Shown here one piece after another: positions 46,479-61,731 of a DNA stretch of 64,000 nucleotides. Position 1 is the stretch's first letter. Each line of letters begins with the position of its first letter. Location: contig JAHEYT010000024.1 in NCBI GenBank assembly GCA_023251455.1, positions 105,219 through 169,218 of the forward strand. The letters run 5' to 3'. The stretch is from Bacteroidota bacterium (GTDB lineage Bacteria > Bacteroidota > Bacteroidia > Bacteroidales > Prolixibacteraceae). The notes beneath the pieces were generated by a model. That model saw only the letters and a list, made by a program, of their open reading frames with translations. It was not told the DNA's origin and did no database searches. The translations under genes and the position numbers were made by a program.

Positions 46479-46596
46479 TTCAGGTTTAGATTACTTAGTT
46501 AATTGCCAACAAATATGGTGAAATAATTAGAAGCGTCAAAACGACATTAATTTGTTTTACGAACAAAATCTCTGGGAGTGGAAATTGCAAAAACGA

Positions 46597-46628
46597 AAAC
46601 CCCTTTGCTAATTCGAACAAAGGGGTTT
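46597..46628 (-). terminator. Terminator downstream of the 247-residue gene and its array
   Basis: AAACCCCTTTG / CAAAGGGGTTT perfect 11-bp stem followed on the minus strand by TTCGTTTTTG. It lies just beyond the 21-bp array, so the array is probably transcribed with the unknown gene up to this point. Confidence 0.65.
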
Positions 46629-46698
46629 CGATCATGAGAAAAAGAGTGATCGTTTCAATATTGACTTTGGGTAATTCAAAAATATTTATCGGTATTTC

Positions 46699-46908
46699 AG
46701 GATTCCCTTTGCGTAATACATAAATCGCTTTCTAAATTACATAAATCCCTCTACATATTTTAATTTATATGATGTTAATTTTATAATTCCCTCTTTGTCT
46801 TTCATAATTCCATTTGCGGTTTTTGAAATATGTATTAGATGATTTATAATTCCCTTTCTATTATTTGATTTTCGCTGTACATAAAACAAAAATCGCTGTG
46901 GCCTTTTG
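46699..46908 (-). repeat. 21-bp period array with 12-nt core and 9-nt variable segment
   Basis: Ten consecutive 21-bp units in exact register (starts 46699, 46720, 46741, 46762, 46783, 46804, 46825, 46846, 46867, 46888). Read on the minus strand each unit is nine variable bases then a core close to AAAGGGAWTTAT. Core matches to the consensus by plus-strand start: 46846 12/12; 46720, 46741, 46783 and 46804 11/12; 46699 10/12; 46888 9/12. Units 46762, 46825 and 46867 are eroded. No indels break the 21-bp phase. The array begins 28 bp after the stop codon of the 247-residue gene and is followed by a terminator. The 457-bp gap holds no credible gene. It is too short-period for CRISPR. Confidence 0.75.
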
Positions 46909-46935: not shown

Positions 46936-47679
46936 TTACCGGGGTTTACTAAACTGCAGGGAAGTGACTTGTTTATACTGGGGGCTTGTTGCGCCAAACA
47001 CCGATTTGGTATAAAGTTTTGCTGCATTGGCCACATTAACAATTCCCGTATTTTCGTTGTAAAGCAGTTCATTACGAGTGATCCGCAGGTTGTTTAAAGG
47101 TTGTTCGGCATCGATTACGGCCTGGTTTTTTGCAAACATGTCATTGTAATGTGCAGTCAGCGAGGAAACTGTTAATTCGGTTTCGTTGGGAGCATATTCG
47201 GGAATGGATGCCAGTAGTTTGATGAGTTTATCGAAGTTCTCCAAAAGGTTGTCGATGCTGGTTTGCGCCGATGAGATTTCAACGACTTCCTGCCCGGCGG
47301 CCAGTGCAGCCTGCTTTTCTTCTTCCGACAATTTAGGTGTAGCACGCCGTCCCTGCAACTTGCGGACAATTGCCGTGACCTGATCTTGTGTTTGTTTGGA
47401 AACACCTGATACTTTCACTGCATTCCCAATACGGGTAACCAGCGCCTTAAATGGTTTAAACACTCCTCCCCTGGCTGAAAGTGCATTGGAAAGTGTTGCC
47501 TGTACCGTGTTTAGTGATGACATGCATTCTTTGGACAGAGCCAGGGAACTGGTCATTTGAGGAAGCTGAAGAGGAGGATTGCTTGGGTTGTACTTTGCAC
47601 CAAAAGATTTACAGATGCTGAGCATTTGTGAAAAGTTGGCCACATTTTTTGCATGGCCGGATTCTGAATTGGATGCCAT
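46936..47679 (-). CDS. Conserved-looking protein of unknown function, array-associated
   Basis: A 247-residue protein without signal peptide or membrane segment. It is largely alpha-helical (LSKECMSSLNTVQATLSNALSA, QTQDQVTAIVRKLQG, IDNLLENFDKLIKLLASI), with a basic patch RKLQGRRATPK in the middle. The C-terminus is compact (RNELLYNEN, KSVFGATSPQYKQV). It looks like a complete, well-folded protein. I believe it belongs to a multicopy Bacteroidota family of hypothetical proteins but cannot give a function. It is monocistronic, with a perfect -7 box about 104 bp upstream. The gene is followed within 28 bp by the 21-bp array, then by a terminator. A nucleic-acid-binding role is a guess from the basic patch and array. 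Confidence 0.75.
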   Translation of the reverse strand: MASNSESGHAKNVANFSQMLSICKSFGAKYNPSNPPLQLPQMTSSLALSKECMSSLNTVQATLSNALSARGGVFKPFKALVTRIGNAVKVSGVSKQTQDQVTAIVRKLQGRRATPKLSEEEKQAALAAGQEVVEISSAQTSIDNLLENFDKLIKLLASIPEYAPNETELTVSSLTAHYNDMFAKNQAVIDAEQPLNNLRITRNELLYNENTGIVNVANAAKLYTKSVFGATSPQYKQVTSLQFSKPR

Positions 47680-47885: not shown

Positions 47886-47949
47886 AAATCTACAATCTAA
47901 ACCTAACTAAACTTCCAACCAACTATCTATTGCTAGAGCAAACCTGATG

Positions 47950-48084
47950 TCACTCCAGAATAGCTTCTTTTTCTTCATCACTTAAATTATCAACCCCTCT
48001 TACTTTTACCCTAAATGAAAGATGTTCCACCTGCTTTAAGGGGCAATCAATCTGCCTTTCAAGACATGGATAATTGTACACCAT
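47950..48084 (-). CDS. Possible small ORF of 44 codons at the end of the sulfatase operon
   Basis: Too short for the ORF track. On the minus strand an ATG at 48084, 18 bp past the stop of the GH-A-clan hydrolase gene, opens a 44-codon frame ending in TGA at 47950, before the operon terminator. The predicted peptide contains two cysteines (YPCLERQIDCPL) and a charged C-terminus (DNLSDEEKEAILE) that reads like a helix. Position and composition make it a candidate small protein. Chance cannot be excluded and no family is recognised. Confidence 0.35.
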   Translation of the reverse strand: MVYNYPCLERQIDCPLKQVEHLSFRVKVRGVDNLSDEEKEAILE

Positions 48085-48102
48085 ATATTTACCGGTATAA
48101 TC

Positions 48103-60180: not shown

Positions 60181-61731
60181 ATGTTGAAAAAGACAGGAGA
60201 TTTCTTTCGTAAACATCTTTTCCTCCTATTATTCTGCGCATTCGCCATTGGAATTATGGCTACCATTTCAGGAAATAAAGCAATCGAATATACTTCAACC
60301 GACGAATTTTGTGCTTCGTGCCATGTTCATCCACATGTATTTCCTTCGTGGAAACTGTCAACTCACTACGATAACAAAGGCGGGATACAAGTGCATTGTG
60401 TCGATTGTCACCTTCCGCCCAAAGGACAAGGCTACCTTTTAGAAAAAACCAGGCTTGGACTCAAAGATGTTTACGGTTACCTCTTCAAAGATTCGGCTGA
60501 ATTTAACTGGGAGATGAAGTCTGAACTGGAACATGCCGTGAAGTATATTCCGAACACATCGTGTAAAAATTGCCACCAGAACCTGTTCCCGAAAGATTTA
60601 GTAGACGCAGGCATAGCTGCCCATCTTTACTACGAAAATAACGAGAAGAAACTGGATTTGCAGTGTATCAGTTGCCACCTCGACGTCGGGCATTATAACC
60701 CAAACTACAAGCACGGCAAGATGACCGGCATACCGGGGCAAGCTGACGGTACCGATAGTTTGAAAACCGCTTTTGAACAGGCAACCACCGTAACAACTTT
60801 TGCCGACTACACCGAGCAGATTCCCGGCACATCGGTATCCTTCAAGATGATTGCTATCAAAGGCGGCACCTTCAACATGGGCAGCCCCGAAAAAGAACCT
60901 TTCCACCAAGCCGATGAATCGCCGGTGCGTCAGGTTACGGTCAGCCCGTTTTTCATGGCTGAAGTGGAAACAACCTGGGAAGAGTATTGGGCATTTTACG
61001 GTAACACAATGAGCGAAGGACGCACCCCGCCCGAACAGATTTATGCCAACAACAGTAACCCGAACGTGGATGCCATTTCCGGCCCGACCCCGCCTTATGG
61101 ACGACCCGACCAGAACTGGGGCTTTGGTAAACGTCCGGCAATAACCATGACCCATTATGCTGCGGAAACCTTCTGCCAGTGGCTCTCAAAGAAAACCGGC
61201 AAAAAATACCGACTGCCCACAGAAGCCGAATGGGAATATGCAGCACGCGGTGGTACGGAAACACCGTATTTCTTTGACGGAAAACCGAATAAGTTCTCCA
61301 ACAAAGGATTATGGCGTAAAATCTCGGCTGCCGAAACCGAACCGATTTCGCAGTACATCATTTATGCAAACAATGGCAAAGGCAAAACGCATTTGCCCGA
61401 AGAGGTCAAGCCAAATCCATTCGGCCTGAAAAATATGCTGGGTAACGTTATGGAATATTGTGCCGACCGTTATGCACCCGACGCTTATGCCAAAAACAGC
61501 GGTAAAGTGTCTAACCCACTCGTAACCGAAGGCGAGGAATGGGTTGTGCGCGGGGGTAATTATATTTCGGATGCAGCCGACGTGCGCGCGGCAGCCCGCG
61601 ACCACAGCCAGCACGACGCATGGCTGAAAACCGACCCGCAACAGCCCAAAAGCATCTGGTGGTATTCCGATGTTAAAAGCATCGGGTTCAGGGTTATTTG
61701 TGAGCCTGATAATTCAATAAAAATTCAATAG
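60181..61731 (+). CDS. NapC/NrfH-like tetraheme cytochrome fused to a SUMF1-like domain
   Basis: A 516-residue protein. Residues 12-32 form a membrane anchor. Four CxxCH heme motifs follow: CASCH (44-48), CVDCH (73-77), CKNCH (128-132), CISCH (162-166), the layout of NapC/NirT/NrfH quinol-linked cytochromes. From about 216 a SUMF1/formylglycine-generating-like fold begins: FKMIAIKGGTFNMGSP, VETTWEEYWAFY, YRLPTEAEWEYAARGG, GLKNMLGNVMEYCAD, WVVRGGNYISDAADVRAAARD. The two cysteines expected after RGG in true FGE are absent, so sulfatase activation is unlikely. It is probably periplasmic, accepting or donating electrons. First gene of an operon; the next gene starts 34 bp on. Confidence 0.88.
   Translation: MLKKTGDFFRKHLFLLLFCAFAIGIMATISGNKAIEYTSTDEFCASCHVHPHVFPSWKLSTHYDNKGGIQVHCVDCHLPPKGQGYLLEKTRLGLKDVYGYLFKDSAEFNWEMKSELEHAVKYIPNTSCKNCHQNLFPKDLVDAGIAAHLYYENNEKKLDLQCISCHLDVGHYNPNYKHGKMTGIPGQADGTDSLKTAFEQATTVTTFADYTEQIPGTSVSFKMIAIKGGTFNMGSPEKEPFHQADESPVRQVTVSPFFMAEVETTWEEYWAFYGNTMSEGRTPPEQIYANNSNPNVDAISGPTPPYGRPDQNWGFGKRPAITMTHYAAETFCQWLSKKTGKKYRLPTEAEWEYAARGGTETPYFFDGKPNKFSNKGLWRKISAAETEPISQYIIYANNGKGKTHLPEEVKPNPFGLKNMLGNVMEYCADRYAPDAYAKNSGKVSNPLVTEGEEWVVRGGNYISDAADVRAAARDHSQHDAWLKTDPQQPKSIWWYSDVKSIGFRVICEPDNSIKIQ

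Follow-up and report, generated by a model that had tools for sequence, protein, structure and literature searches.

An uncharacterised helical protein gene and its exact 21-bp repeat array form a two-part module across Bacteroidota

A two-part module, consisting of a gene for an uncharacterised helical protein and the gene's own array with an exact 21-bp pitch, occurs across Bacteroidota. Both the protein family and the array appear to be undescribed so far, and no description of the module was found in open-access papers. In the window (the whole stretch of 64,000 nucleotides of Prolixibacteraceae DNA that was analysed), the array lies at 46650..46901 on the minus strand, 3' of the gene at 46936..47679 on the same strand. 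Judged from sequence, the module would pair an orphan, basic, tandem-duplicated helical protein with a cognate array of about 6-24 direct 21-bp sites bound as double-stranded DNA, a reading to which a probability of about 0.5 is assigned.

The window array and its adjoining gene

The row of 21-nt units at the window locus is genuine. The original prediction described ten units in 21-bp phase at 46699-46908, seven of them matching a 12-nt core (AAAGGGAWTTAT on the minus strand) at 9 or more positions, and the unit listing bears this out, with per-unit scores of 10, 11, 11, 3, 11, 11, 5, 12, 6, and 9 of 12. All good matches to AAAGGGAWTTAT share one 21-nt phase, out-of-phase matches at ≥9/12 being absent from the region, and 2000 shuffles gave at most 2 good units against the 7 observed. 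A likelihood fit that assumes no core and compares periods 17-24 recovers the same array in a different frame, as 12 units at 46650-46901 with a score of 57 at period 21, whereas periods 17-20 and 22-24 yield scores of -5 to -1 and 40 control stretches reach a maximum of 9.7. In the whole 64 kb, the runner-up 21-nt stretch scores 2.1, and the window array is the sole one of its kind. Tandem Repeats Finder reports no array at this locus because the units average just 50% identity. The spacing of two helical turns free of indels holds as predicted, as does the statement that the array fits no known CRISPR, REP, or VNTR form: it shows the defining feature of none of the three.

The predicted link of the array to an unnamed gene is also confirmed. 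The adjoining open reading frame (46936..47679, minus) encodes a basic protein of 247 aa that is all-helical and internally duplicated; it belongs to an unnamed family (median pI 9.4) and has a motif starting SETGHAKNVANF. Searches of Pfam, NCBIfam, PHROGs, and PADLOC returned no accepted match to this protein, and Pfam matches, Nop included, were likewise absent for 77 family members. The PDB sequence profile search of the family returned nothing convincing; its best match, to a bornavirus phosphoprotein (E 0.007, 64 residues), is read as chance coiled-coil similarity. The AlphaFold model is confident and all-helical (mean pLDDT 87.5), and its Foldseek comparison with PDB and BFVD gave nothing at E below 0.001 and no recognised DNA-binding fold, with the caveat that all-helical folds score poorly, so that a very remote Nop link could be missed. 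The two halves of the protein are homologous according to internal profile alignment (E 3.9e-8 vs 0.23 for the reversed control). Upstream of the gene, a small open reading frame ending in CSSNR (47933-48090, minus) is apparently conserved in G022 (L004).

Distribution of the gene family and placement of the arrays

The window's genome contains one further full gene copy and one decayed copy. Since the gene family is found in 16 of 61 sampled genomes of relatives and in just 6 of 297 across the phylum, its distribution is patchy. Scanning public genomes yielded 398 related loci; the 80 retained come almost entirely from Bacteroidota. Isolate matches sit on large chromosomal contigs; no plasmid or phage record matched the module and merely two viral contigs carry the family, on which grounds a mobile plasmid or phage module was rejected. 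No specific neighbour gene is conserved: the recurrent neighbours look generic, and each occurs at 9 loci at most. In G010, repeated fragments of the 5' part of the gene proved to be contig ends.

The search of other genomes for 21-nt units, proposed with the original prediction, finds arrays beside homologous genes across Bacteroidota. The strongest period over the 450 nt that follow the stop codon equals 21 or 42 nt in 71 of 81 homologous loci, and the match excess averaged over 70 arrays amounts to 0.29 at lag 21, 0.335 at lag 42, and 0.29 at lag 63, compared with ~0.01 at lags 20 and 22. For seven loci without an adjacent array according to the fit, an array was found nearby. Distant homologues from the phylum survey, fetched regardless of arrays, provide an independent check: a 21-nt array is present at 4 of these 5 loci (scores 105, 95, 94, and 43), with nothing at 20 or 22. 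No array was found up to about 3 kb from the G319 homologues, whether at the survey locus or at a second, very remote match.

The array is mobile with respect to the gene. Arrays are located upstream of the gene and on the opposite strand in L079, L106, and L096, and 0.7-1.7 kb downstream of it in L076, L051, L088, and L032. Solo arrays with the same core also occur away from the gene in Pedobacter (at two places in G062 and, with about 24 units, on contig 12 of G061). Given that the array may be downstream, upstream, inverted, distant, or in trans, it is not simply a 3' UTR. As for dispersed single sites, they show no excess over control in five genomes. On contig 92 of G000, near 60558 (L003), a decayed gene copy is still followed by a long 21-nt array.

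Unit sequence, conservation, and terminators

The arrays comprise 6-19 units (median 11) with a mean unit identity of 47-91%, the near-homogeneous extreme being represented by L076, a Pedobacter sandarakinus locus (91%), and L051 (88%). The core sequence varies from locus to locus and the 21-nt spacing is constant. Similarity between array position weight matrices (PWMs) climbs with protein identity. Arrays resemble one another more on the same strand than as reverse complements, even where protein identity falls below 50%, and the orientation to the gene is mostly kept. Two unit types, A and B, alternate significantly (p<0.01) in 9 of 76 arrays (p=0.39 for the window array). A weak 7-nt sub-period is present within arrays (z 7.7), and the unit itself shows the expected 10.5-bp signal only weakly.

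The claim that the nine bases outside the core differ freely needs correcting, because they are constrained and not entirely free: when the window array and L031 are compared unit by unit, identity over the most variable third of positions is 53%, vs 33% for mismatched units. Orthologous arrays keep their variable positions, preserve the order of their units, and are mostly conserved at least as well as the four-fold sites of the gene (66% vs 47% for the window and L031, 80% vs 65% for L044 and L063, and 74% vs 60% for L037 and L042), with L107/L109 and L067/L077 as exceptions. In L095 and L104, the stretch running from the stop codon through the array to the second hairpin described below is ~95% identical, compared with 43% at four-fold sites of the gene; strong selection on the 3' part, or its recombination, may account for this.

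In the window, an intrinsic terminator recognised by sequence (46585..46628, minus; hairpin AAAACCCCTTTG/CAAAGGGGTTT followed by a T-run) is scored after the array; the 3' arm of the hairpin is similar to the array core and keeps to the array phase within about one base. The array had been placed between the gene and its terminator and hence judged likely to be transcribed; the placement is correct for the window, L002, and other Prolixibacteraceae loci, but neither point is supported in general. Among the 36 homologous arrays with a detectable terminator, it lies before or inside the first units in 30 and after the array in 6, all of the latter in the window's clade, where the array is probably transcribed. 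Beyond arrays situated past the gene terminator, the next ~120 nt of the gene strand yielded no second terminator.

Proposed binding of the array and alternative readings

Among the three options originally offered, a same-face protein-binding array fits best, and a diversified guide-like element is disfavoured by the near-homogeneous arrays and the kept variable positions. The encoded protein would bind its own array as double-stranded DNA. With a pitch of two B-DNA turns, every site would lie on the same face, and monomers could align cooperatively into a regular nucleoprotein array. The halves of the duplicated protein may serve as two equivalent contact surfaces, and the locus-specific core tracks the protein lineage. 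Possible outcomes include autoregulation, silencing, and a centromere-like or anchoring function.

Variety of placement, a terminator ahead of the array, and exchange of AAA and TTT blocks together favour a dsDNA binding-site array of iteron- or centromere-like type. AAA and TTT replace each other at the same phase 114 times vs 41 expected, which is the top value among 635 fully different trinucleotide pairs, and the exchange is seen in 21 of 75 arrays vs 2.7 expected, with mixed A/T words depleted; the null for these figures is column shuffling, which breaks the linkage between unit types. Such exchange fits dsDNA, where it represents one A-tract read from either strand, while in RNA the two blocks are very unlike. 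Alternatively, it could result from a mutational mechanism. The minor-variant spectra of the arrays show no strong strand bias. RNA folding of both strands of the arrays gave no consistent structure (mean z -0.8 and -0.95), and a structured RNA was rejected on these inconsistent scores and an empty Rfam search. Weighing against dsDNA binding are the kept orientation, by which the transcribed strand could matter, the 7-nt sub-period, the A/B alternation in a minority of arrays, the weak 10.5-bp signal, the lack of a recognised DNA-binding fold, the array-less G319 homologues, and the probable transcription in the window's clade.

In plasmid iterons, direct repeats in helical register lie beside the gene of the protein that binds them, and gene and array are inherited together. 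The module likewise has helical-register direct repeats beside the gene of a putative binder, and its invariant, indel-free 21-bp pitch falls within the ~17-22 bp in helical phase typical of iterons. Unlike iterons, it has no Rep or winged-helix match, is chromosomal with no plasmid or phage record, and its site can be in trans or inverted. The parS site of pSM19035 consists of contiguous, non-palindromic, sequence-specific 7-bp repeats in 7-10 copies, which overlap gene promoters and are bound by ParB/Omega (PMC9499535). The module resembles it in its contiguous repeats and weak 7-nt sub-period; however, Omega is a small ribbon-helix-helix protein acting with ParA, in contrast to the 247-aa duplicated helical protein, and the ParA gene expected beside a ParABS/Omega-type centromere is not found next to the arrays.

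The module was rated as outside the known kinds of repeat array. Nameless and Bacteroidota-wide, it would add a new class of short-repeat array beside iterons, centromeres, CRISPR, and TIGR. The invariant 21-bp pitch, changing cores, and co-inherited protein make a recognition code testable over dozens of natural protein-site pairs. Should DNA binding be confirmed, the module would move nearer to iteron-type systems and may prove to be a novel type of iteron or centromere system.

According to a different and unlikely reading, the array is transcribed and processed into RNAs of 21 or 42 nt; the protein would carry these RNAs and the variable bases would act as guide, in the manner of TIGR-Tas with an unrelated protein. 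TIGR arrays, which lie upstream or downstream of one gene, are built of alternating 8-12-nt repeats and 9-nt spacers (PMC12045711), close to the 12+9 layout of the window array. The module shares with them a short repeat joined to a variable segment of similar size, A/B alternation at 42 nt in some arrays, and one small adjoining gene, and a guide RNA would also suit the mostly kept orientation, the variable positions conserved between orthologues, and the patchy, accessory family. Membership of TIGR-Tas was nevertheless rejected, as no Nop domain is matched by sequence or fold (77 members against Pfam, PDB profile, and Foldseek). Instead of two alternating repeats with diverse ~9-nt spacers, most arrays show no alternation at p<0.01, and the variable segments are not freely diverse and sometimes absent, leaving the near-homogeneous arrays without diverse guides. 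TIGR-Tas arrays are processed to a ~36-nt tigRNA. The module's terminator mostly precedes the array with no further terminator close behind, and the AAA/TTT exchange is hard to square with a conserved RNA. A guided or RNA-scaffolded system lacking Nop and convergent on TIGR-Tas, in which 21-/42-nt units would load the duplicated protein and its halves would take A and B, is considered quite unlikely. As for CRISPR-Cas, the likeness ends at a core-plus-variable array beside a gene: the unit is far too short, near-homogeneous arrays exist, and in place of adjacent cas genes there is no recurring cas neighbour family and a protein without a PADLOC match.

It is also unlikely that the array serves as a decoy RNA or as a leader or tail for autoregulation, its sites in the gene's own transcript titrating the protein or feeding back on the mRNA. 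The array's place in the window, L002, and other Prolixibacteraceae loci, after the stop codon and ahead of the terminator, agrees with this, as do terminator hairpins in or beside the array register at several loci (L040, L044, and L107). However, most terminators come before or within the first units, and inverted, upstream, and trans arrays occur. Type III toxin-antitoxin systems (ToxIN) similarly combine a small gene with a tandem repeat and a terminator, but the module has no ToxN-like fold or family and no consistent RNA structure, and repeat length and gene order differ.

A passive minisatellite, with copies made by slippage or unequal recombination and near the gene by chance, is very unlikely. 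Arrays in L076, L079, and L099 are clearly homogenised, and the near-identical head-to-tail copies that characterise a VNTR are seen in some relatives, e.g., L076, but not in the window, with its 50% identity. Moreover, the spacing is exactly 21 nt across families despite unrelated cores, linkage to one gene family is fixed with a sole array in 64 kb, and orthologous arrays are mostly no less conserved than four-fold sites. A decayed heptad-repeat peptide (21 nt being 7 codons) can practically be set aside: although the spurious 111-aa open reading frame that the window array partly overlaps contains a GII(K/N) repeat, stop codons interrupt all six frames in 40 of 76 arrays, no shared or conserved open frame is seen across arrays, and a terminator often separates gene and array.

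Several hairpins accompany the arrays. In L040, L044, L047, L107, and L109, the terminator hairpin is in array register, with one arm equal to an array unit. A dispersed, imperfectly palindromic element of about 150 bp (GCTGCTAACACACGCCTATG ... GTTAGCAGC) adjoins the array end, following it directly in L046, L050, L059, L065, L066, L073, L074, and L103; its copies in L046 and L059 have no Rfam match. A second hairpin after the array (AAGCACATTTGCAATT, loop TCGCACAAAGCCCACCCGCA, AATTGCAAAAGAGCTT), whose stems apparently show compensating changes, is present in L037, L042, L044, L048, L060, L063, L070, L107, and L109, with variants in L086, L095, L098, and L104.
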